From contig NZ_JAHCSH010000004.1 of NCBI RefSeq assembly GCF_018474005.1, positions 186,001-250,000 on the forward strand: DNA of 64,000 bases, given 5' to 3'. This document shows, piece by piece, positions 31,297-55,138 of this stretch. The notes below the pieces were generated by a model, which was given only the letters and a program-made list of their open reading frames with translations, was not told the origin of the DNA and searched no databases. The stretch's first letter is position 1. The number at the start of each line of letters is the position of its first letter. Origin of the DNA: Curvibacter sp. CHRR-16. GTDB taxonomy: Bacteria; Pseudomonadota; Gammaproteobacteria; Burkholderiales; Burkholderiaceae_C. The position numbers and the translations under genes are program-made.

Positions 31297-32181
31297 ATGA
31301 CCACTTCCACACCGCACTACTCCACCCTCATCTCTCCCGAGGAACTGCAAACTCTGCGCGCGCAAGGCCAGACAGTCATGGTGTTTGACTGCTCATTCGA
31401 GTTGATGAACCCGGTTGCAGGCCCAGCCCAGTTTGACGAAGTGCGCATAGCAGGTGCTGTATACACCCACTTGGACACAGCACTGAGCGCCAAAGGTGCA
31501 GGCGTGGCCACCGCATCGGGCGGACGCCACCCGCTGCCCACCCGTGAACACTTTGCCCAGTGGCTAACCAGCGTGGGCTTTACCAACGGCATGCAAGCCG
31601 TGGTCTACGACCGCCAAGGCGTGAACTACTGTGGTCGCTTGTGGTGGATGCTGCGCTGGCTCGGTCACCAAGCCGTGGCGGTGCTCGACGGCGGCCTGCA
31701 AGCTTGGCAAGCCGCTGGCCTGCCCACTGAAAGCGGCCCAGCACCAGCCCCTAGTGCAGCGGCACAAGCCTTTGCCTTGCACGAGCCACTGGTGCGCTTG
31801 GTTGATGCCAGCCATGTGCAAGCCACGCTGGGCCAGCCCCAGTACTCCGTAATCGATGCCCGCGCCACCCCCCGCTACAAAGGCGAGATGGAACCCATAG
31901 ACCCCAAAGCAGGGCACATTCCTGGTGCACTCAATCGGCCTTTTTCTAACAACATCGGCTCCGATGGCCGTTTTAAACCCGCAGAGCAACTGCGCGCCGA
32001 GTTTGCCGCACTGCTAGGCCAGCGCGATGCCGCCCACGTCATCCACCACTGCGGCAGTGGCGTGAGCGCCGTACCCAACGTACTGGCCATGGAGATTGCA
32101 GGCCTGGGCACCCCCGCTCTGTACGCCGGTAGCTGGAGCGACTGGTGCAGCGATGCCAGCCGCCCGGTAGCCCAAGGGTAA
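31297..32181 (+). CDS. sseA: 3-mercaptopyruvate or thiosulfate sulfurtransferase (two rhodanese domains)
   Basis: The 294-residue protein has two rhodanese domains. The N-terminal one (VMVFDCSFELMNP) is inactive by family rule; the C-terminal one carries the active cysteine in HHCGSGVSA. That loop fits the CGSGVTA-like pattern of 3-mercaptopyruvate sulfurtransferases better than the CRKGV pattern of thiosulfate enzymes. It ends seven bases before the sigma-54 promoter of the nrt operon, so the -24 region of that promoter lies almost against its stop codon. Confidence 0.88.
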   Translation: MTTSTPHYSTLISPEELQTLRAQGQTVMVFDCSFELMNPVAGPAQFDEVRIAGAVYTHLDTALSAKGAGVATASGGRHPLPTREHFAQWLTSVGFTNGMQAVVYDRQGVNYCGRLWWMLRWLGHQAVAVLDGGLQAWQAAGLPTESGPAPAPSAAAQAFALHEPLVRLVDASHVQATLGQPQYSVIDARATPRYKGEMEPIDPKAGHIPGALNRPFSNNIGSDGRFKPAEQLRAEFAALLGQRDAAHVIHHCGSGVSAVPNVLAMEIAGLGTPALYAGSWSDWCSDASRPVAQG

Positions 32182-32193
32182 ACCAGCACAAGA

Positions 32194-32209
32194 TGGCACA
32201 GCTCTTGCT
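32194..32209 (+). promoter_or_regulatory. Sigma-54 promoter of nrtABD
   Basis: TGGCACAGCTCTTGCT matches the sigma-54 consensus TGGCAC-N5-TTGC(A/T) at every fixed position, with GG and GC exactly ten bases apart. Transcription should start near 32220, 133 bases before nrtA. Nitrogen-assimilation operons are commonly sigma-54 and NtrC dependent; I could not pick out convincing NtrC boxes, which would lie inside the sulfurtransferase gene. Confidence 0.85.
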
Positions 32210-32219
32210 TGAATAGCTG

Positions 32220-32352
32220 CAACGTGTAGCGGCATTCACCAACGAAGGGCTTGCCGCTACCAAGGACAAGGCGTCCCCACCTCTACAGCACTGGTTCAGT
32301 GCGTATTCGCGGTGCGGACGCTTTTTGCTTTTTTCTGCACAAGGAGTTTGTC
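32220..32352 (+). promoter_or_regulatory. nrtA leader with tandem ANTAR-type hairpins and an attenuator
   Basis: Three elements follow the predicted start in order. P1 is GTAGCGGCA (32226-32234) paired with TGCCGCTAC (32252-32260), topped by hexaloop AACGAA (32241-32246) with A at position 1 and G at position 4. P2 is GGAC-AAGGC-GTCC (32264-32276). A strong intrinsic terminator spans 32271-32334: GCGTCC (32271-32276) with GGACGC (32316-32321), an inner GCACTG/CAGTGC hairpin and two T tracts. The 3' arm of P2 and the 5' arm of the terminator are the same bases, so only one can form. ANTAR proteins bind such tandem hairpins and cause read-through. Confidence 0.8.
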
Positions 32353-33594
32353 ATGTCTCAGTCCTCTCCCCTGATCCAGCGCCGTACCCTCTTGCAAGCC
32401 ACTGCCGCTGCAGCCGTGGGCATTAGCCCCGCCCTGCGCGCTGTGGTGCACGCTGCCGGATCCGACGCACCAGAAAAGACCGAAGTGAAGATCGGCTTCA
32501 TCCCCCTGACCGACTGCGCCAGCGTCGTCATGGCCAGCGTACTGGGCTTGGACCAAAAGTACGGCGTCAAGTTCGTGCTGTCCAAAGAAGCCAGCTGGCC
32601 CGGCGTGCGCGACAAGCTGGTCAACGGTGAACTGGACATGGCCCACGTGCTCTACGGTTTGGTCTACGGTGTGCACTTGGGCATAGGCGGTCCCAAGAAG
32701 GACATGGCCGTGCTCATGACCCTGAACAACAACGGCCAAGCCATTACCCTGAGCAAAAAACTGGCCGACAAAGGCGCTGTGGATGGCCCCGGCTTGGCCA
32801 AGCTGATGCAAAGCGAAAAACGCGAATACACCTTTGCCCAAACCTTCCCCACCGGCACCCACGCCATGTGGTTGTACTACTGGCTGGCCAGCTACGGCAT
32901 CAACCCCATGAGTGATGCCAAAGTCATCACCGTGCCACCACCCCAAATGGTGGCCAACATGCGCATTGGCAATATGGACGGCTTCTGCGTTGGTGAACCC
33001 TGGAACCACCGCGCCATCATCGACGGCATTGGCATCACTGCCACTACCACGCAGGACATCTGGAAAGACCACCCTGAAAAAGTGCTGGGCGCTACGGGCG
33101 AGTTTGCCAAAAAGTACCCCAACACCTGCCGCGCTGCCATGTGCGCCATCTTGGAAGCGGGCAAGTGGATCGACTCTGGCCTGCAAAACAAAAACAAGAT
33201 GGCCGAGACCATCGCCGAAAAGTCCTATGTGAACACGGGCGTTGACGCCATCAACCAGCGCATCTTGGGCCGCTACCAAAACGGCATGGGCAAGACCTGG
33301 GACGACCCCAACCACATGAAGTTCTTCAACGAAGGTGCTGTCAACTTCCCCTACCTGTCTGACGGCATGTGGTTCCTGACCCAACACAAGCGCTGGGGCT
33401 TGCTCAAAGACCACCCCGACTACCTGGGCGTGGCCAAACAGATCAACCAAATTGACCTGTACAAACAAGCTGCCACCGCCACCAAAACTGCTCTGCCCAA
33501 GAGCGACATGCGCACCAGCAAACTGGTGGATGGTGTGGTGTGGGACGGCAAAGACCCCAAGAAATACGCCGATAGCTTCAAGGTCAAAGCCTGA
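32353..33594 (+). CDS. nrtA: Nitrate ABC transporter substrate-binding protein (NrtA/CmpA family)
   Basis: The 413-residue periplasmic or lipid-anchored binding protein should capture nitrate for the NrtBD importer. It starts with a twin-arginine-like signal (QRRTLLQATAAAAVG). The mature part has VKIGFIPLTDCASVVMASVL, MRIGNMDGFCVGEPWNHRA and TTTQDIWKDHPEKVLGATGE, all typical of the NrtA/NasS group. AAGGAG precedes the ATG at 32353; a longer frame from 32251 runs through the attenuator and is rejected. It is the first gene behind the sigma-54 promoter and leader. Confidence 0.92.
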   Translation: MSQSSPLIQRRTLLQATAAAAVGISPALRAVVHAAGSDAPEKTEVKIGFIPLTDCASVVMASVLGLDQKYGVKFVLSKEASWPGVRDKLVNGELDMAHVLYGLVYGVHLGIGGPKKDMAVLMTLNNNGQAITLSKKLADKGAVDGPGLAKLMQSEKREYTFAQTFPTGTHAMWLYYWLASYGINPMSDAKVITVPPPQMVANMRIGNMDGFCVGEPWNHRAIIDGIGITATTTQDIWKDHPEKVLGATGEFAKKYPNTCRAAMCAILEAGKWIDSGLQNKNKMAETIAEKSYVNTGVDAINQRILGRYQNGMGKTWDDPNHMKFFNEGAVNFPYLSDGMWFLTQHKRWGLLKDHPDYLGVAKQINQIDLYKQAATATKTALPKSDMRTSKLVDGVVWDGKDPKKYADSFKVKA

Positions 33595-33605: not shown

Positions 33606-34418
33606 ATGAGCGATACCTCTGCACCGCGCAGACCAGACCTGTCTTGGCTGTGGCACAGCGTGCTCCCACCCGTGCTGGGCTTGGCCTTGTTGGTGCTTAT
33701 TTGGGAGTTGGTCAGTAAAGGCACCGCAGGCTCCATACCCGGCCCCAACGCCACACTGCAAGAAGCAGTCGAGCTGTTCTCCAAGCCCTTCTACCGCAAC
33801 GGCCCCAACGACCAAGGCGTGGGCTGGAACGTGCTCAACTCCCTGCAACGCGTGGCACTGGGCTTTGGCTTGGCTGCAGTGGTGGGCATTCCGGCGGGCT
33901 TTCTGATTGGCCGATTTGACTTTTTGGGCCGCATGTTCAACCCCATCATCAGCCTGCTGCGCCCAGTGTCACCACTGGCGTGGCTGCCCATTGGCCTCTT
34001 GGTGTTCAAGGGGGCCAACCCGGCTGCTATCTGGACTATCTTTATCTGCTCCATCTGGCCCATGGTCATCAACACCGCAGTGGGCGTGCAGCGCGTGCCC
34101 AAGGACTACCTGAACGTGGCCCGCGTGCTCAACCTGAGCGAGTGGAAAGTGTTCACCAAAATCCTGTTCCCTGCCGTGCTGCCCTACATGCTGACGGGCG
34201 TGCGCTTGGCCGTGGGCACCGCGTGGCTGGTCATCGTGGCCGCTGAAATGCTCACCGGCGGCGTAGGCATTGGCTTTTGGCTGTGGGACGAGTGGAACAA
34301 CCTGAACGTCACCCACATCCTCATCGCCATTCTCGTCATCGGCATCGTCGGCTTGCTGCTGGAAACGGCACTCATCCGCTTAGCCAAAGCTTTCACGTTT
34401 GAAGAGGTGTCTTCATGA
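33606..34418 (+). CDS. nrtB: Nitrate ABC transporter permease
   Basis: The 270-residue membrane protein belongs to the NrtB/SsuC/TauC permease group. It has about six membrane helices, beginning [18 protein letters not shown] after a short cytoplasmic leader, and the EAA loop for ATPase contact near [39 protein letters not shown] near the end is typical of nitrate and taurine permeases. It lies 11 bases after nrtA, and its stop overlaps nrtD by four bases. Confidence 0.92.
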
Positions 34419-35248
34419 GCGACAAATACCTGCAAATCGACGGCGTAGCCCAAACCTTCAAGACGCCCAAGGGCGCTTTTCAGGCGCTGCGCGACATCCA
34501 CCTGCACATCAACAAAGGCGAGTTCGTCGCCCTCATCGGCCACTCCGGCTGCGGCAAGTCCACCTTGCTCAACCTGATAGCCGGGCTGACCAGCCCCACC
34601 GAAGGCAGCTTGCTGTGCGCCAACAAAGAAATACGCGGCCCCGGCCCGGAGCGCGCCGTGGTGTTCCAAAACCACTCGCTGCTACCTTGGCTCACCTGCT
34701 ATGAAAACATCTACCTGGCCGTAGAGCGCGTGTTTGGCAGCAGCCGACCCAGCGCTGGCGGTGGCCGCACCAGCGCCGAGAGCAAAACCCAGCTCAAAGC
34801 CCGCACCGAAGCCGCCCTGGCCATGGTGGGCCTGACCCACGCCACGCACAAACGCCCCGGCGAAATATCCGGCGGCATGAAGCAGCGCGTGGGCATAGCC
34901 CGCGCCCTAGCCATGGAACCGCAAGTGCTGCTGATGGACGAGCCATTCGGCGCGCTGGACGCGCTGACACGCGCCAAGCTGCAAGACGAACTGCTAGAGA
35001 TAGTGGCCAAGACCCAGGCCACCGTGGTCATGGTCACCCACGACGTGGACGAAGCCGTGCTGCTGTCCGACAAGATCGTGATGATGACCAACGGCCCCGC
35101 CGCCACCATCGGCGAAGTGCTGCAGGTAGAGCTGCCCCGCCCCCGCTCCCGCGTGACGCTGGCTGACGACCCGCAGTACCAGCACTACCGCAAAGAAGTC
35201 ATCGACTTTTTGTACACCCGGCAGGGGCATGTGGAGAGGGCGGCGTAG
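34415..35248 (+). CDS. nrtD: Nitrate ABC transporter ATP-binding protein
   Basis: This 277-residue ATPase powers nitrate uptake. It shows Walker A (GHSGCGKST), the Q-loop ([11 protein letters not shown]), the signature SGGMKQR and Walker B ([12 protein letters not shown]). The switch histidine is in VTHDVDEA. Only one ATPase is present; cyanobacterial systems have two, NrtC and NrtD, the former with an extra NrtA-like domain. This is the short NrtD form. A 24-residue Ser/Gly/Arg-rich insertion follows the Q-loop at about residues 105-128 ([16 protein letters not shown]). Confidence 0.93.
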
Positions 35249-36982: not shown

Positions 36983-38380
36983 CTAACCCAACAACACCTG
37001 CAAGCTGTGCTCGTACTGGCTCGATAGCTGGTCAAACGTGGTCAGCAATTGCTCGCTGCCGTCGCACAGCAGGTGCAGTTGCTCCAAGCGGCTGTGGCCT
37101 TGGTGTTGCGGGGCGGTTTGGGCGGCTCGCACCAATCTAAGCCACAGTACCCCGGCCTGGGTTAGCGCATCGCTAATAGCTTGGCTGCTCAGTGGGGCGG
37201 CGTTCAGGCGCAGCAGCGCGGCTTCAAAGGCCTCTTTGGCGCTGGCCATGCCCACGTGGGCGCGCTGCTCCAGCGTGGCCTCGCCCAGCCCCAACAGCAG
37301 AGCGTACTTGGCGTAGCGCTGGCTCAGCATGCGCTGGCGGCCCGCTACATTGAGCAGTTGCAGGCGGGCAGCGCCTTGGCTCTCTAGCCGGTTGGTCAGC
37401 GCGTCGGCTTCTTGCAGCAGCACCTCGGCGGCGCTGTCCAGCGCCAGGGGGTCGTCGCGCTGCAGGCGAACTTGCAGCTGCTGCCACACGGCCTGCAGGG
37501 CTTGCAGGTCGGAGCCAAACTGCTGCACGTCCACATGGCGCTGCAAAAAAACCAGATTGCCATCGGCCCAGCGCACGCTCTCGTCCAACAGGGTTTTGCA
37601 CTGGGCTTGGTTCACGCCTGCCAACTGCAGCCAGTGCAGCTTGACGATGCGCTGGCTCAGCATGCGCAGCTGGCCGCAGCGGTTCAGGCTTTCGGCCAGC
37701 ACGGCGCTGTCCACCACGGTTTGGGCCAGTTCGCCCAGCCGCATATTGGTGTTCATGGCGGTGGAGCGCAGCAGGGTAAAGGCCTCATCATCAGGCAGCG
37801 CCTGCGTGCGCATGAGCAAGCCTTTAGCCCGGTCCACAGCGATGCGGTCTTGCAAACGGCGCGACACCTCTTGCAGTGCCTTCAGCTCACGCTGCACCTG
37901 CTGCTGGCGCACGCGAGCCAGACACACCAGCGCAGGCAGCTCATGGGCTGCGTGGCCCTGCAGACCGTAGTAGTGCACACCACGTTCCAGCGCTTGGTGC
38001 ATGCTGGCGCTACGGCTGTCTTGGGTGAACAGCAGCACGCCACCGCTGTAGTGCTGCGCTAGGCGCGACAGCCCTGCCAACAGCGCTTCGTCTACCTGCT
38101 CGGCGGCACACAGCACGGCTTGCGGCTGGGGCTGTGCGGCCAGCACGTGGGCTACCCAATCTAGATGGGCATCGGCCGTATCCAAGGCCAACACCGCAGA
38201 CCAAGCTGCACCGATATCCTGCTCAACTGGGGTGGCTTGGTTGGCATACGCCGCTTGGCAGTCGGCCAGCAAGCGCTGCCAAGCGGGGCCGTGGCCTAGC
38301 ACCAGCACGGGTTGAGCAGCGGGCGAAGCAGTGGAAGCTGCAAACAAAGCAGCAGAGGATGGGGCAGCGTTTTTGGACAT
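36983..38380 (-). CDS. ANTAR-domain antiterminator fused to PilJ-type sensor modules (NasT/NasR-like)
   Basis: The 465-residue protein has three parts. Residues about 22-155 look like a degenerate receiver (VLVLGHGPAWQRLLADC, VLLFTQDSRS) as in NasT. Residues about 168-230 are an ANTAR RNA-binding domain (LQDRIAVDRAKGLLMRTQ). Residues about 233-465 hold two PilJ-type helical modules, each led by a box: CGQLRMLSQRIVK and AGRQRMLSQRYAK. ANTAR proteins bind tandem hairpins in leader RNA and prevent termination; the two nearby leaders (32220-32352, 38478-38659) are likely targets. PilJ/NIT-like helical domains sense nitrate in NarX and NasR, so nitrate is the expected signal. The start at 38380 is used; an antisense extension to 39613 is rejected. 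Confidence 0.88.
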   Translation of the reverse strand: MSKNAAPSSAALFAASTASPAAQPVLVLGHGPAWQRLLADCQAAYANQATPVEQDIGAAWSAVLALDTADAHLDWVAHVLAAQPQPQAVLCAAEQVDEALLAGLSRLAQHYSGGVLLFTQDSRSASMHQALERGVHYYGLQGHAAHELPALVCLARVRQQQVQRELKALQEVSRRLQDRIAVDRAKGLLMRTQALPDDEAFTLLRSTAMNTNMRLGELAQTVVDSAVLAESLNRCGQLRMLSQRIVKLHWLQLAGVNQAQCKTLLDESVRWADGNLVFLQRHVDVQQFGSDLQALQAVWQQLQVRLQRDDPLALDSAAEVLLQEADALTNRLESQGAARLQLLNVAGRQRMLSQRYAKYALLLGLGEATLEQRAHVGMASAKEAFEAALLRLNAAPLSSQAISDALTQAGVLWLRLVRAAQTAPQHQGHSRLEQLHLLCDGSEQLLTTFDQLSSQYEHSLQVLLG

Positions 38381-38451: not shown

Positions 38452-38467
38452 TGGCACGCAGTTTGCT
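38452..38467 (+). promoter_or_regulatory. Sigma-54 promoter of the nirB operon
   Basis: TGGCACGCAGTTTGCT matches TGGCAC-N5-TTGC(A/T) exactly, with GG and GC ten bases apart. Transcription should begin near 38478, about 182 bases before nirB. It faces the nirB-nirD-nasA operon and is the second such promoter in this locus. Confidence 0.85.
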
Positions 38468-38477
38468 TAATCCTATC

Positions 38478-38659
38478 CAGCGCAACGAAGCGCACCTGCC
38501 CCTTGCAGCAACACCACCACCGTATTCAGTGGGTTGCGACCAGCCAAGGCGGCATTCCGATTCCCCCTTTTGTTTCACACGAACCGGAACCCACAGGTGC
38601 CCTGCTCCGCTATTGCGCGCCTGTTCGTCCGGCTCGGTAGCGCTTTGGAGTTCAGGCCC
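38478..38659 (+). promoter_or_regulatory. nirB leader with ANTAR-type hairpins and a weaker attenuator
   Basis: P1 is GCGC-AACGAA-GCGC at 38480-38493, with the same AACGAA hexaloop as the nrtA leader. A separate hairpin lies at 38508-38537 (GCAAC/GTTGC then CCAC/GTGG). P2 is GCC-AAGGC-GGC at 38543-38553, with the same AAGGC loop as in the nrtA leader. A terminator-like stem AAGGcGG (38546-38552) with CCcCCTT (38563-38569), followed by TTGTTT, overlaps P2. The terminator is weaker than that of nrtA, and P1 and P2 are further apart than usual, so the model is less secure here. Confidence 0.65.
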
Positions 38660-41140
38660 ATGAAAAAAGCACGACTGGTACTCATTGGCAACGGCATGGC
38701 CGGTGTCCGCACCATCGAAGAGCTGCTCAAGCTCGCACCAGATTTGTACGACATCACCATTTTTGGTGCAGAGCCCCACCCCAACTACAACCGCATCATG
38801 CTCTCGCCCGTGCTGGCCGGGGAGCAGCAGGTTAGCGACATCGTGCTCAACCCGCTGGACTGGTATGCCGAGAATGGCATCACCCTGCACACGGGCAAAA
38901 AGGTGGTGAAGGTAGACCGCGTGCAGCGCGTGGTGGTGGCTGAGGACGGCACACAGGCCCCATACGACCGCCTGCTGCTGTGCACGGGGTCTAACCCCTT
39001 CATGCTGCCCATACCGGGCAAAGACCTGCCCGGCGTATTGGCCTACCGCGACATAGCCGACACCGAGGCCATGATTGCCGCAGCCAGCCAGTACCGCCAT
39101 GCGGTGGTGATTGGCGGCGGACTGCTGGGCTTGGAAGCAGCCAATGGCTTGAAACTGCGTGGCATGGACGTGACCGTGGTGCACGCCACCCAAACGTTGA
39201 TGGAGCGCCAGCTCGACAAAACCGCCGGAAGCATGCTGCAAAGCGCGCTGGAAGGCCGTGGCCTGCAATTCCGCATGGGCGCACAAACCCAAGAACTGGT
39301 AGCCGGGCCCAGCGGTCGCGTGGCCGCTATCCGCTTCAAAGACGGCAGCGAGTTGCCTGCTGATCTGGTGGTGATGGCCGTGGGCATTCGCCCCAACACC
39401 GAACTGGCGCAAAGCATGAACCTGCATGTGGATCGCGGCATCGTGGTAACCGACACCATGCAGACCGTGACCGACGCCCGCATCTACAGCGTGGGCGAAT
39501 GTGCCGCACACCGGGGCGTGGCCTACGGGCTGGTAGCCCCGCTGTTTGAGCAGGCCAAAGTAGCCGCCAACCACCTGGCCCAGATGGGCATAGGCCGCTA
39601 CACCGGATCGCAAACCAGTACCAAGCTGAAAGTAACGGGCATAGACCTGTTCTCGGCAGGCAACTATTTGGGAGCCTCCACCGGCAAGGCCGAAGACGCT
39701 AGCTGCGAAGACATCGTGCTAAGCGACCCGTTCAGCAATGTGTACAAGCGCCTGGTAGTGCAAGACAACAAGCTGGTAGGCGCTTGCCTGTATGGCGACA
39801 CAGCCGATGGCAGCTGGTACTTCAAGCTGATGCGCGAAGGCACGCCGGTGAACGACATCCGCGACCGACTGATGTTCGGGCAAAACTTCACCAGCTCCAA
39901 CACGGGTGACGTAGGACACCAAGGCCACAACAAAGCCGCTGCCATGGCCGACAGCGACGAGGTGTGCGGCTGCAACGGCGTCACCAAAGGCGCCATCTGC
40001 AAGGCCATCAAAGACAAAGGCTTGTTCACGCTGGAAGACGTGCGCAAGCACACCAAGGCCAGCGCCAGTTGCGGCTCGTGCACAGGCTTGGTGGAGCAGA
40101 TCATCATGGTCACCGCAGGGGGTGACTTCTCGGCCACACCGAAGAAGAAAGCCCTGTGCGGCTGCACCGACCACAGCCACCAAGAGGTGCGCGAGGCCAT
40201 CCGCACCCCGCTGGCAGACGGCAGCAAGCTGCTGAGCATAGGCAGCGTCTACCAAGCCTTGGGTTGGCGCACGCCCAACGGTTGTGCGACATGCCGCCCA
40301 GCCGTCAACTACTACCTCATCAGCACATGGCCGCACGAGGCCAAGGATGACCCGCAAAGCCGCATGATCAACGAGCGCAGCCACGCCAACATCCAAAAAG
40401 ACGGCACCTACAGCGTGATACCGCGCATGTGGGGCGGCGAGACCACGGCGTCTGAACTGCGCCGCATTGCCGACGTGGTGGACAAGTACCAGATACCCAC
40501 CGTGAAGGTGACGGGCGGCCAGCGCATCGACCTGCTGGGCGTGAAAAAAGAAGACCTGGTGGGCGTGTGGAAAGACCTGGACATGCCCTGCGGCCACGCC
40601 TACGCCAAGGCGCTGCGCACCGTGAAAACCTGCGTCGGCTCGGAGTGGTGCCGCATGGGTACCCAAGACAGCACCCAGATGGGCAAAGACCTGGAGCGCG
40701 CCCTGTGGCGCATGTACGCCCCACACAAGGTGAAACTGGCCGTGAGCGGCTGCCCGCGCAACTGCGCGGAAGCGGGCATCAAGGACGTGGGCGTGATCGG
40801 CGTGGACAGCGGCTGGGAGCTGTACGTGGCGGGCAACGGCGGCATCAAGACCGAGGTGGCCCACTTCTTTGCCAAGGTGAAAACCGCCGAAGAAGTGCTG
40901 GAGTACAGCGGTGCTTTCTTGCAGCTCTACCGCTTGGAAGCGTGGTATCTGGAGCGCACCGTGCACTGGGTCAATCGCGTGGGCTTGGACTATGTGAAGC
41001 AGCAAATCTTGGACAACGCCGACAAACGCAAAGCGCTGTGGGCGCAGCTGCAAGCCGCACTGGAGGGCGAGCCCGACCCATGGTTTGAACACGCCAAGGC
41101 GCAGGTGGATGTGCGCCAGTTCACCCCCATTAGCGCCTAA
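38660..41140 (+). CDS. nirB: Assimilatory nitrite reductase large subunit
   Basis: NirB reduces nitrite to ammonium with NAD(P)H, FAD, Fe-S and siroheme. The 826 residues run: FAD/NAD domain (LVLIGNGMAGVRTIEELL, VIGGGLLGLEAANGL), two BFD-like Fe-S motifs (CGCNGVTKGAIC with CGSCTG; CGCTDHSHQEV with CATCRP) and a sulfite/nitrite reductase domain. The siroheme-4Fe4S ligands are in KTCVGSEWCRMG and SGCPRNCAEAG. The ATG at 38660 follows GGAG; a longer frame from 38534 would cross the attenuator. It leads the operon nirB, exported PilJ protein, nirD, nasA, methyltransferase, PilJ/MCP protein. Confidence 0.95.
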   Translation: MKKARLVLIGNGMAGVRTIEELLKLAPDLYDITIFGAEPHPNYNRIMLSPVLAGEQQVSDIVLNPLDWYAENGITLHTGKKVVKVDRVQRVVVAEDGTQAPYDRLLLCTGSNPFMLPIPGKDLPGVLAYRDIADTEAMIAAASQYRHAVVIGGGLLGLEAANGLKLRGMDVTVVHATQTLMERQLDKTAGSMLQSALEGRGLQFRMGAQTQELVAGPSGRVAAIRFKDGSELPADLVVMAVGIRPNTELAQSMNLHVDRGIVVTDTMQTVTDARIYSVGECAAHRGVAYGLVAPLFEQAKVAANHLAQMGIGRYTGSQTSTKLKVTGIDLFSAGNYLGASTGKAEDASCEDIVLSDPFSNVYKRLVVQDNKLVGACLYGDTADGSWYFKLMREGTPVNDIRDRLMFGQNFTSSNTGDVGHQGHNKAAAMADSDEVCGCNGVTKGAICKAIKDKGLFTLEDVRKHTKASASCGSCTGLVEQIIMVTAGGDFSATPKKKALCGCTDHSHQEVREAIRTPLADGSKLLSIGSVYQALGWRTPNGCATCRPAVNYYLISTWPHEAKDDPQSRMINERSHANIQKDGTYSVIPRMWGGETTASELRRIADVVDKYQIPTVKVTGGQRIDLLGVKKEDLVGVWKDLDMPCGHAYAKALRTVKTCVGSEWCRMGTQDSTQMGKDLERALWRMYAPHKVKLAVSGCPRNCAEAGIKDVGVIGVDSGWELYVAGNGGIKTEVAHFFAKVKTAEEVLEYSGAFLQLYRLEAWYLERTVHWVNRVGLDYVKQQILDNADKRKALWAQLQAALEGEPDPWFEHAKAQVDVRQFTPISA

Positions 41141-41150
41141 GCCCAGCCTT

Positions 41151-41948
41151 ATGCTTCGCCGACAACACCTTCTCTGTTTGGCTAGCGCTGCCATGTTGGG
41201 TTGGGCACACACTGCCAAGGCTCTAAACAGTGATAGCAACAGTGCTTTGACGGCTGCTATCAACAAAGCAGGTCGCCAGCGCATGCTCAGCCAACGCATG
41301 AGCAAAGCATGGCTCTGCTTGGTGCTGGGCGTGCAGACAGATCGAGCCAAGGATGTACTGCGCGCATCCACCGAGTTGTTCGAAAAACAACTCAGTGAGC
41401 TGCAAGCCTTTGCACCCAAAGCTGAAATTGCCAGCACCTACACCCAGCTCGGCGCGGCTTGGCAAGAGTTCTCCGCCACATTGCAAACCAACACTGCCAG
41501 CAACGCTGGTCAGCTCTTACTGCAAGATAGCAAAGTACTGGCCTTGGCACACCAAGGCACACAGCAACTTGAAGCAGAACTGAACCAACCCATTGGCAAG
41601 CTCGTCAACATTGCAGGCCGACAACGCATGCTCAGCCAACGCATGGCCAAGTTTTATTTCGTGAGCGTATTGAAGTCCGATGCACAAGCAGAGAGCGAGA
41701 TCGTCAAAGCACGCAACGAGTTCTTGTCAGCACTAGAAACCCTCAAAAAATCTCCATTGGCCACGCCCAGCATCTTGAACGAGCTGGCCTTGATCGATGG
41801 GCAATGGGTCTTTTTCAACGCTGCATTGCAAAAGCTGACAGCCGATCAAAACAGACAGCGCTCCATGCGCGACGTTTTGATTGCCAGTGAAAACATCCTG
41901 ACCGAACTGGACAAAGTGACAGGCCAATACGCTGCTTTATCTAGTTAA
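41151..41948 (+). CDS. Exported PilJ-type protein in the nitrate operon
   Basis: The 265-residue protein has a signal peptide (LLCLASAAMLGWAHTAKA) and then two copies of a helical module, each opened by the box AGRQRMLSQRM at about residues 40-50 and 155-165. This is the N-terminal domain of PilJ-type transducers and resembles the nitrate-binding P-box helix region of NarX. There is no membrane anchor after the signal and no signalling domain, so the protein should be free in the periplasm. It lies between nirB and nirD, ten bases after nirB. A nitrate or nitrite sensing or buffering role is inferred from place and domain only. Confidence 0.82.
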   Translation: MLRRQHLLCLASAAMLGWAHTAKALNSDSNSALTAAINKAGRQRMLSQRMSKAWLCLVLGVQTDRAKDVLRASTELFEKQLSELQAFAPKAEIASTYTQLGAAWQEFSATLQTNTASNAGQLLLQDSKVLALAHQGTQQLEAELNQPIGKLVNIAGRQRMLSQRMAKFYFVSVLKSDAQAESEIVKARNEFLSALETLKKSPLATPSILNELALIDGQWVFFNAALQKLTADQNRQRSMRDVLIASENILTELDKVTGQYAALSS

Positions 41949-45418: not shown

Positions 45419-46246
45419 ATGCCCACCACGCCTGTTTCCACTTCTTCTTTGACCCTGTGCCCCGGCAGCGTGACACTGGTGGGCGCAGGCCCGGGTGATC
45501 CCGGTTTGCTCACCCTGCATGCGGTGCAAGCCATTGCCCAAGCCAGCGTGCTGCTGGTGGACGATTTGGTGAACGACACAGTGCTGCAACACGCTGCACC
45601 GGGCGCACGCATCATCCATGTGGGCAAGCGTGGGGGCTGCGTGTCCACACCGCAGTCCTTCATTGAAAAGCTGATGATCACCGCCGCCCGCGAAGGCGAG
45701 TGTGTGGTACGCCTCAAGGGCGGTGACCCTTTCATCTTTGGGCGCGGTGGCGAGGAGGTAGAACACCTGCAAGCCGCTGGAGTGCCCGTGCAGGTGGTGC
45801 ATGGCATTACTGCCGGACTGGCAGCGCTGGGGCGCTTGCAGGTGCCGCTGACGCACCGCGACCACGCGCACGGCGTGCTGTTCATGACTGGGCACAGCAA
45901 ACCCGGTGGTCAAGCCCCGGACTGGGCACTGCTGGGACAGACGGTGCAGCAGTGCAAGCTAACGCTGCTCATCTACATGGGCATGGGCCAGCTAGAGGGT
46001 ATCCAAGCCGGGCTGCTGAACAGCTTGGCCGATACCACGCCAGCGGCTATCATCCAGCACGCTAGCTTGCCCACCCAGCGCCATGTGGTGTGCACTTTGG
46101 CCAACCTGCACGCTACCGCCGCGCGCGAACACATGGGTAGCCCCAGCGTGGTGGTGGTAGGCGATGTGCTGCAGGGCCTAGCCCAGCTTGCCAGCACGAC
46201 GGACGATACAGCCACCACATTCATGCCCCTGCGCCATGCCAGCTAA
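45419..46246 (+). CDS. cobA: Uroporphyrinogen-III C-methyltransferase (siroheme synthesis)
   Basis: This SAM-dependent enzyme adds two methyl groups to uroporphyrinogen III to give precorrin-2, the route to siroheme needed by NirB. The 275 residues contain VGAGPGDPGLLTLHA, the RLKGGDPFIFGRGGEE loop and GITAGLAALGR, as in SUMT/CysG C-terminal domains. A dehydrogenase-ferrochelatase part is not fused. The ATG at 45419 is chosen; a longer frame overlaps nasA. It supplies a cofactor for the same operon. The stop lies 11 bases inside the next gene. Confidence 0.93.
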   Translation: MPTTPVSTSSLTLCPGSVTLVGAGPGDPGLLTLHAVQAIAQASVLLVDDLVNDTVLQHAAPGARIIHVGKRGGCVSTPQSFIEKLMITAAREGECVVRLKGGDPFIFGRGGEEVEHLQAAGVPVQVVHGITAGLAALGRLQVPLTHRDHAHGVLFMTGHSKPGGQAPDWALLGQTVQQCKLTLLIYMGMGQLEGIQAGLLNSLADTTPAAIIQHASLPTQRHVVCTLANLHATAAREHMGSPSVVVVGDVLQGLAQLASTTDDTATTFMPLRHAS

Positions 46247-46913
46247 TCCCAGCGTGCCCTCCTCTTCCGCGTCGGCCCAACCCGCCTCGCACCTGAACTT
46301 GGCTGGCCGCCAGCGCATGCTCTCGCAACGCCTGCTGCTGCAAACCATGCTGGCCAGCCAAGCCAGTGACCAAGCAGCCAACCCACATTTGGCTACGGCA
46401 CAAGCCACTCGGACGGAATTTGAGCGCAGCCAGCAAGCCTTGGCCCAATGCTGGCAGCACTACCCTGCCCCAGCCAGCCAGACGCTGCGCACCCTGTACA
46501 CCGAGGTACAAGGCATCAGCCCCGTGGTACAGGACTTTTGCCAGCGCATAGACCAGTGCCACCAAGCGATTGCCCAGCGGCGTGACAGTGTTGCACTGGT
46601 GCATGCGGCCGTCAGTTGCGCTGATGCGGTGCTGCAGGCGCTCAACCGCGCTACCGAGGTGTTTGACCAGATCAACCGCCAAGCCGAAAAAGCCCTGTTC
46701 CAAGAGTTGCAACACATCGTGGGGCGCGTGCAAGAGATTGCCCGCGAAGCCAAAATTGTGAGCTTCAACGCCCAAGTCATTGCCGCCCGCGCAGGCACCG
46801 AAGGGCGCGAGTTTTCAGTGGTGGCCAATGTGCTGGCGGGCATCAGTGGCCAAGTGACCGAACTGTCGCAGCAAGCGCTGCAGTTGGTGGGAAACAAGAA
46901 CGCCCGCAACTGA
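46236..46913 (+). CDS. Soluble hybrid of a PilJ-type box and an MCP-like helix
   Basis: The 225-residue protein has no signal peptide and no membrane helix. Near the start (about 21-33) it carries LNLAGRQRMLSQR, the same box as in the two other PilJ-type proteins of the locus. Its C-terminal half contains AREAKIVSFNAQVIAARAGT followed by EGREFSVVANVLAGISGQVT. That corresponds to the tip of a chemoreceptor signalling hairpin but lacks the long methylation helices. It overlaps the methyltransferase gene by 11 bases, so it belongs to the nir-nas operon. A cytoplasmic nitrate-linked chemotaxis or regulatory role is possible; I know of no named family member. Confidence 0.75.
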   Translation: MPANPSVPSSSASAQPASHLNLAGRQRMLSQRLLLQTMLASQASDQAANPHLATAQATRTEFERSQQALAQCWQHYPAPASQTLRTLYTEVQGISPVVQDFCQRIDQCHQAIAQRRDSVALVHAAVSCADAVLQALNRATEVFDQINRQAEKALFQELQHIVGRVQEIAREAKIVSFNAQVIAARAGTEGREFSVVANVLAGISGQVTELSQQALQLVGNKNARN

Positions 46914-54947: not shown

Positions 54948-54984
54948 GATTGTTTTGAAAATAAAACGGGCCGGTAGAACGCAA

Positions 54985-55130
54985 TTGACCAATAGCCCCC
55001 ACCGGCCACGGGGAGGGGCGTATTGGTCAAAGGTCTTGCCAGGCTGGAGCTGCTTACGCCATGGTCTGCGGACCAAGTGTGTTGACGCAAGCCTCAAACA
55101 GAAGTGTTTGAGCGGCTACTCCCCAATGAC
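54985..55130 (-). ncRNA. yybP-ykoY-type (Mn2+) riboswitch and expression platform
   Basis: Read on the minus strand, TTGGGGAGTAGC is followed by a hairpin (GCCTCAAACA/TGTTTGAG region), CGTCAACACACT, the stem TGGTCCGCAGACCA and GCAAGACCTTTGACC, matching the conserved class layout. The outer helix pairs CATTGG with CCAATA. That CCAATA can instead pair with TATTGG in a long hairpin at 54985-55030. A further alternative pairs GGCCGGTGG with CTACCGGCC and is followed by CGTTTTATTTT. The aptamer begins about nine bases after the dienelactone hydrolase stop codon. Confidence 0.82.
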
Positions 55131-55138
55131 GGGCGCGA

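Follow-up and report, generated by a model that had tools for sequence, protein, structure and literature searches.

Known ANTAR-controlled leaders and the nrtA locus of Curvibacter sp. CHRR-16

Transcription of nasF in Klebsiella starts from a sigma-54 promoter. The RNA targets of ANTAR proteins are described as dual hairpins whose loops begin with A and carry G as their fourth base (A1 and G4), with the second hairpin, P2, lying inside a terminator (PMC3369931), and the linkers accepted for known targets span 2-25 nt (PMC8164766). In the EutV-RNA structure G4 is reported as the sole base-specific contact, a single dimer is described as moving from one loop to the next, and Met172 of EutV is proposed to set loop size (PMC8934654). 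Here we describe a leader of this type upstream of nrtA, the gene for the substrate-binding protein of a nitrate ABC transporter, in a 64,000-nucleotide stretch of the 3.45 Mb genome of Curvibacter sp. CHRR-16 (assembly GCF_018474005.1, contig NZ_JAHCSH010000004.1, positions 186,001 to 250,000), which we call the window. The leader is most probably a transcription attenuator of the ANTAR type under a sigma-54 promoter. The promoter site, the mutually exclusive pairings, their conservation and covariation in relatives and a lone ANTAR match in the genome come from computation, and regulator binding, nitrate sensing, termination and read-through are inferred; the leader very probably works as an ANTAR target, as predicted by the initial annotation.

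Two-step control, with sigma-54 initiation followed by ANTAR antitermination, is not new, being known from NalA of Pseudomonas, which is described as the leader of nirBD with a sigma-54/NtrC start and antitermination by NasT (PMC12830290). The window's leader shares the sigma-54 start and differs in standing before nrtA rather than nirB. In addition, NasT is paired with NasS in Pseudomonas, whereas the only ANTAR match in this genome is an ANTAR-PilJ protein. The nasF leader and NasR of Klebsiella are alike in having tandem hairpins before a terminator and a one-component nitrate sensor with ANTAR output (PMC7496416, PMC3369931). However, NasR has NIT followed by ANTAR, whereas the window's protein has a REC-like part, ANTAR and two PilJ units. 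The EutV targets of Enterococcus likewise consist of two hairpins bearing A1 and G4, and their P2 excludes the terminator, but the signal there is ethanolamine acting through a phosphorylated REC domain, the loops have six bases, and the target descriptions consulted mention no sigma-54 start (PMC3369931, PMC8934654).

Promoter, hairpins and terminator of the leader

The elements of the leader, all on the plus strand, are as follows.

32134..32149, plus strand: possible NtrC-like site TGGAGCGACTGGTGCA, two mismatches to TGCACC-N-GGTGCA
32194..32209, plus strand: sigma-54 promoter TGGCACAGCTCTTGCT (TGGCAC-N5-TTGCT, -24/-12), exact match
32226..32260, plus strand: hairpin P1, loop AACGAA at 32241-32246 (A1, G4), from folding
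32264..32276, plus strand: hairpin P2, GGAC-AAGGC-GTCC, five-base loop at 32268-32272 (A1, G4), from folding, -3.7 kcal/mol
32271..32334, plus strand: intrinsic terminator, stem 32271-32321, U tracts 32322-32334, from folding, -26.9 kcal/mol
32341..32346, plus strand: AAGGAG, ribosome-binding site of nrtA, from the sequence
32353..33594, plus strand: nrtA, nitrate ABC transporter substrate-binding protein (NMT1_2)

The sigma-54 site is exact, as the initial annotation had it, and places the predicted RNA start near 32220. The pattern TGGCACN5TTGCW has two matches in the window against 0.39 expected by chance, a number that 7 of 100 shuffles reach; the second exact site lies upstream of nirB (38452..38467, plus strand). 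TGCACC-N-GGTGCA is the consensus of NtrC sites. Sites of this kind with at most two mismatches were found in the 300 bases upstream in 55 of 101 leaders, the window's included, against 2 of 101 shuffled sequences; taken singly, the candidate at 32134-32149 is weak.

P1 was claimed as a hairpin with loop AACGAA. It forms as claimed, with a nine-base-pair outer stem and an internal loop (-18.3 kcal/mol), but the stem directly beneath the loop, of 2-3 base pairs, is weaker than had been suggested. P2 was recovered at its annotated place, as was the strong terminator with its predicted stem and U tracts. Bases 32271-32276 are common to both, which confirms that the two structures are mutually exclusive. 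Forcing P2 to form costs 12.5 kcal/mol (from -51.2 to -38.7), so that the fold with the terminator is preferred. Compared with shuffled sequences the leader has the more stable fold (z -3.5; 1 of 200 equally good). We also searched for a hairpin with an A..G loop in which the 3' arm can also pair with a further arm downstream that precedes a T-run. This pattern, composed after the leader had been seen, occurs once in the window, at this leader, and on average 0.1 times in each of 60 Markov-1 random sequences, 4 of which contain at least one.

Both loops, AACGAA in P1 and AAGGC in P2, have the A1 and G4 of ANTAR-target RNA; P2 shares bases with an intrinsic terminator, and the linker of 3 nt (32260 to 32264) falls inside the accepted range. 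A pair of hairpins that each have a stem of 3 or more base pairs and a six-base loop, which also marks such RNA, was not found, P1 having 2-3 base pairs beneath its loop and P2 a loop of five. Because P2 lacks the six-base loop, we do not file the leader as a standard ANTAR-target RNA.

In the mechanism that we propose, nitrogen shortage would, presumably through NtrC, start the RNA near 32220. When nitrate is absent, the terminator at 32271-32334 would form and the RNA would end at about 115 bases. When nitrate is present, the ANTAR-PilJ protein would recognise the P1 loop and then the P2 loop; P2, held together in this way, would hide 32271-32276 from the terminator and nrtABC would be transcribed.

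Conservation of the leader among relatives

A DNA search with the leader matched only its own genome among 100 genus genomes, and in 250 family genomes gave a single match (L004), a chance one within apparently coding DNA. Since no true relatives were obtained in this way, relatives were reached through NrtA, whose best named relatives (Curvibacter, Rhodoferax and related records) are 86-87% identical and suggest a Rhodoferax-like member of the Burkholderiales, and the regions upstream of nrtA were taken from the fetched loci. Among the 109 nrtA loci a genome present in two collections may occur twice; only identical upstream sequences were merged for the leader counts, and one locus with 19 bases upstream (L042) was dropped. 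For P2 parsing, three more were dropped (L028, L033, L109), so that 101 of the 104 distinct leaders were parsed, among them the window's.

The sigma-54 site is present in all 104 distinct regions, 127-251 bases 5' of the extrapolated nrtA start. It is exact in 71, has one mismatch in 32 and two in 1; among shuffled stretches of 160 bases, 1 of 104 reached two mismatches. Many relatives have three leader hairpins, namely an upstream P0 (GACC..GGTC), P1 (ACCC-AACGGC-GGGT and variants) and P2, and some have two, for example Polaromonas records and the loci L055 and L072. In the last two, from a Limnohabitans genome (9853-9903) and a Comamonadaceae metagenome-assembled genome, respectively, the nrtA leader is shortened to two hairpins with a 2-base linker. 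The commonest P2 form is GGAC-AAAGGC-GTCC (70 of 101), another being GAAC-AAAGGC-GTTC, and a terminator arm was located in 95 of 96 leaders examined. Model R1 aligned the window's P1 to that of the relatives (20.1 bits, E 2e-4).

For covariation, 57 leaders remained after thinning by spacing, stem and similarity, and 47 of these were aligned, ten with divergent or shortened hairpins being left out (L023, L029, L041, L057, L058, L068, L074, L080, L081, L082); both steps bias the set toward conservation. Loops with A1 and G4 were found in P1 of all 47 leaders, P2 of 44 and P0 of 20. P0 thus keeps its stem without being a strict ANTAR site. Changes on both sides were seen in 10 of 18 pairs, compensatory change being present in P1, and four of five covariation measures lay above all 500 shuffles. 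The GAAC/GTTC stem occurs, outside these 47, in 7 of 96 leaders, and their terminator arms read GAACGC (3), GAGCGC (3) and GGACGC (1). P2 and terminator arms are thus altered jointly in these leaders, so that one segment keeps two alternative partners, which is the signature of an attenuator.

The ANTAR-PilJ protein and other regulators beside the leader

The genome's only ANTAR match lies beside the nrt operon, in the following gene.

36983..38380, minus strand: ANTAR-PilJ protein, 465 amino acids (ANTAR and PilJ matches)

The protein is comprised of a REC-like fold at about residues 21-160, ANTAR at 172-223 and two PilJ units. The REC-like part gave no Pfam REC match, its fold coming from a structural model. 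NasT has a REC-like part and ANTAR in about 200 amino acids; at 465 amino acids and with two PilJ units, the window's protein is not of this form. The P-box motif G-x-x-R belongs to nitrate sensors of the PilJ/NarX type (PMC8199190), and in the P-boxes here (N233..R244 and N344..R355) GQLR and GRQR are invariant in 22 of 22 sequences. The tandem PilJ part, behind ANTAR, has a predicted sensor fold like that of NasR and McpN, which matches the NIT part of NasR. A NIT match (PF08376) was not obtained for this protein, only ANTAR and PilJ, with a library that finds NIT in L059 and L033. The P-boxes and the fold suggest that the tandem PilJ units bind nitrate. In the ANTAR domain, EutV R142, K143, K147, K149, E160 and Y164 correspond to R179, I180, R184, K186, D196 and F201, and EutV R168, M172, N173, R175 and R177 to R205, M209, N210, N212 and R214. 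Isoleucine at the K143 position was found in the window's protein alone; two ANTAR-PilJ proteins have Gly there, and 4 of 45 ANTAR-only proteins Arg or Gln.

Beside the nrtA leader of relatives other designs are found. In the 109 loci, here unmerged, an ANTAR gene without a NIT or PilJ match, which we call REC-ANTAR, lies just upstream on the same strand in 76, and a NIT-ANTAR gene does so in 12; five of these loci have an ANTAR-PilJ gene as well. Of the remainder, 5 have an ANTAR gene further off and 16 none within the stretch examined. Domains were checked by Pfam for eight proteins, four of them REC-ANTAR, in which the receiver part was weak in L005, L006 and L014 and not found in L055. Judged by gene position, three sensor designs (NasT-like, NIT-ANTAR and ANTAR-PilJ) would thus act on a single type of RNA switch; in genomes with two ANTAR genes, either may be the one that acts.

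The ANTAR-PilJ protein was found at E 1e-50 or better in 19 of 103 genus genomes, including the window's, and only this genome and one incomplete genome (G079) have no other ANTAR match. Fetching by this gene gave 18 genus loci (L124-L141). In every one nirB adjoins it on the opposite strand, and most have a sigma-54 site and loops of the AACGAC type in the leader of nirB. These leaders mostly have two such loops, and one subgroup has a conserved GGATCTC..CTACCCC stretch. A clear U-tract terminator over P2 was not found in them, so their control may differ. The features around nirB and the rest of the nrt operon in the window are these.

33606..34418, plus strand: nrtB, nitrate ABC transporter permease (TIGR01183, over cut-off)
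34415..35248, plus strand: nrtC, nitrate ABC transporter ATPase (TIGR01184, over cut-off)
38480..38493, plus strand: hairpin GCGC-AACGAA-GCGC of the nirB leader, a single ANTAR-type loop, from sequence and folding
38660..41140, plus strand: nirB, assimilatory nitrite reductase large subunit (TIGR02374)

A candidate second hairpin of the window's nirB leader, GCC-AAGGC-GGC at 38543-38553, has just 3 base pairs, in a region whose folding barely exceeds that of shuffles (z -1.74), and was dropped as proof. In three relatives the hairpin leader of nrtA type occurs a second time, just 5' of nirB (L024 13252-13337, L033 16964-17056, L071 14592-14674), and in these genomes nirB lies apart from nrtABC. 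The nitrate cluster of the window also encodes another PilJ protein after nirB, with two PilJ stretches (41085-41948), and a further protein with PilJ and a chemoreceptor signalling domain (46188-46913). A manganese riboswitch (yybP-ykoY, 97.6 bits) lies at 54965-55136 on the minus strand.

Weighing the attenuator and its alternatives

Conservation, covariation, the terminator overlap and a lone ANTAR match beside the operon support the initial annotation's reading of the leader as an ANTAR attenuator. Several observations weigh against this reading. The P2 loop has five bases, against six in published descriptions of ANTAR targets and in the other 96 of 97 leaders; only 2-3 base pairs lie beneath the P1 loop; P2 is invariant in the 47 aligned leaders, and the number of pairs with double change does not stand out, being reached by 109 of 500 shuffles. 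A linker of 3 bases, as here, is reported to have impaired eutP (PMC3369931). In the protein, I180 stands where EutV has the RNA-contacting Lys143, and Phe and Asp replace Tyr164 and Glu160, both of them being frequent in this class of regulator. In a whole-genome search with model R1 the leader (20.2 bits) scored no better than a chance match (L115, 20.5 bits) in a region that we take to be coding, probably acnB, and because of this tie we claim no further targets from R1. Finally, we found no experiment in this genus in the literature.

The five-base P2 loop, noted as a caveat in the initial annotation, is real and was found in no other leader. Our first parser favoured six-base loops and misread hairpins such as L043, L073 and L078, so we recounted without preference: 97 of 101 leaders have a GGAC/GTCC or GAAC/GTTC stem, with a six-base loop in 96 and five bases in the window alone, while L043, L052, L073 and L078 have neither stem. 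The one other five-base pattern match, in a genus genome (G093), was taken as a chance match, as it lies within open frames of 465 and 529 amino acids on a contig other than that of its nrtA. A single assembly shows the five-base loop, which a one-base sequencing error or drift could explain. A tentative and rather doubtful explanation is a regulator swap with co-evolution, in which NasT was lost in this lineage and the ANTAR-PilJ protein, which sits beside nirB in genus relatives, took over the nrtA leader; the leader would then have gained a nirB-type loop and the five-base P2, and the protein would have lost the lysine equivalent to Lys143 of EutV. Loop position 5 is A in AACGAA of both window leaders, nrtA and nirB, and also in 16 of the 19 leaders of nirB that adjoin ANTAR-PilJ genes, but G in 44 of 47 nrtA P1 loops. 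In the nrtA leaders, however, A is found at position 5 of P0 too (36 of 47, and 20 of 20 where A1 and G4 are both present), so it may simply be from the relatives' P0 that the window's P1 descends. This count makes a co-evolved swap somewhat less likely. The incomplete genome with ANTAR-PilJ as its single ANTAR match (G079, 82% complete) keeps six bases (L091), which argues against the swap and makes it less likely that five bases are needed wherever ANTAR-PilJ is the sole ANTAR match. Were the swap true, the leader would hold the first five-base ANTAR loop known to us.

Among the rivals to the attenuator, a decayed leader survives best, although we consider it unlikely. NasT would have been lost, the terminator would act as a fixed attenuator that nothing relieves, and ANTAR-PilJ would read only the nirB leader. 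The lack of a second ANTAR match in the genome, the five-base P2 loop seen in no other leader, the weak P1 stem next to its loop, and the constant pairing of nirB, in most loci with its sigma-54 site and loops, to the ANTAR-PilJ gene in the 18 genus loci all fit decay, but the sigma-54 site, P2 stem, terminator, A1 and G4 of the loops and nrtABC are all intact, and a leader reduced to its terminator would shut the operon.

The Rfam scan bears on a further rival. No family named ANTAR matched; the nearest were P11 (RF00625; full-length match, 28.6 bits, E 7.6e-5, gathering threshold 70) and narK RNA (RF03032; window 32195-32277, 24.2 bits, gathering threshold 43.2). At Rfam thresholds the leader is unmatched in the window and in the loci of three relatives with the standard leader (L009, L024, L071). 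P11, which we take to be NalA, has a consensus with an AACGAU-loop hairpin and GGAC-AAAGGC-GUCC overlapping the terminator, as here, except that its P2 loop is AAAGGC and the window's AAGGC. The narK RNA consensus opens with a sigma-54 site and ends with CGAC-AAAGAC-GUCG, readable as an ANTAR P2, but the matched Rfam structure line has one hairpin only; this suggests that the narK RNA family may itself be a sigma-54 promoter with an ANTAR target. P11 carries the Rfam name 'Pseudomonas sRNA', and its full-length match would fit a terminated leader that is mainly a trans-acting small RNA. We regard this as very improbable: the score is under threshold, what is conserved is a cis switch before nrtA, and NalA is itself described as a leader of nirBD (PMC12830290). 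Lastly, the sigma-54 site would give nitrogen control by itself, but nitrate control at initiation only, with the hairpins incidental, is scarcely credible given that P1 covaries and that the arms of P2 and the terminator have changed jointly.

Meaning of the leader for nitrate control in the Burkholderiales

The mechanism is thus a known one, and what is particular here, and well supported, is the design of the regulator and the five-base P2 loop, together with the third hairpin of many relatives. The five-base loop would test the role in loop size proposed for Met172 of EutV (PMC8934654). The scans suggest that, in the loci tested, no Rfam model scores at its threshold on the three-hairpin nrtA leader that is common in Burkholderiales. 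One conserved RNA switch, found beside REC-ANTAR, NIT-ANTAR and ANTAR-PilJ genes, forms a natural series that lets one ask how ANTAR proteins exchange their targets.
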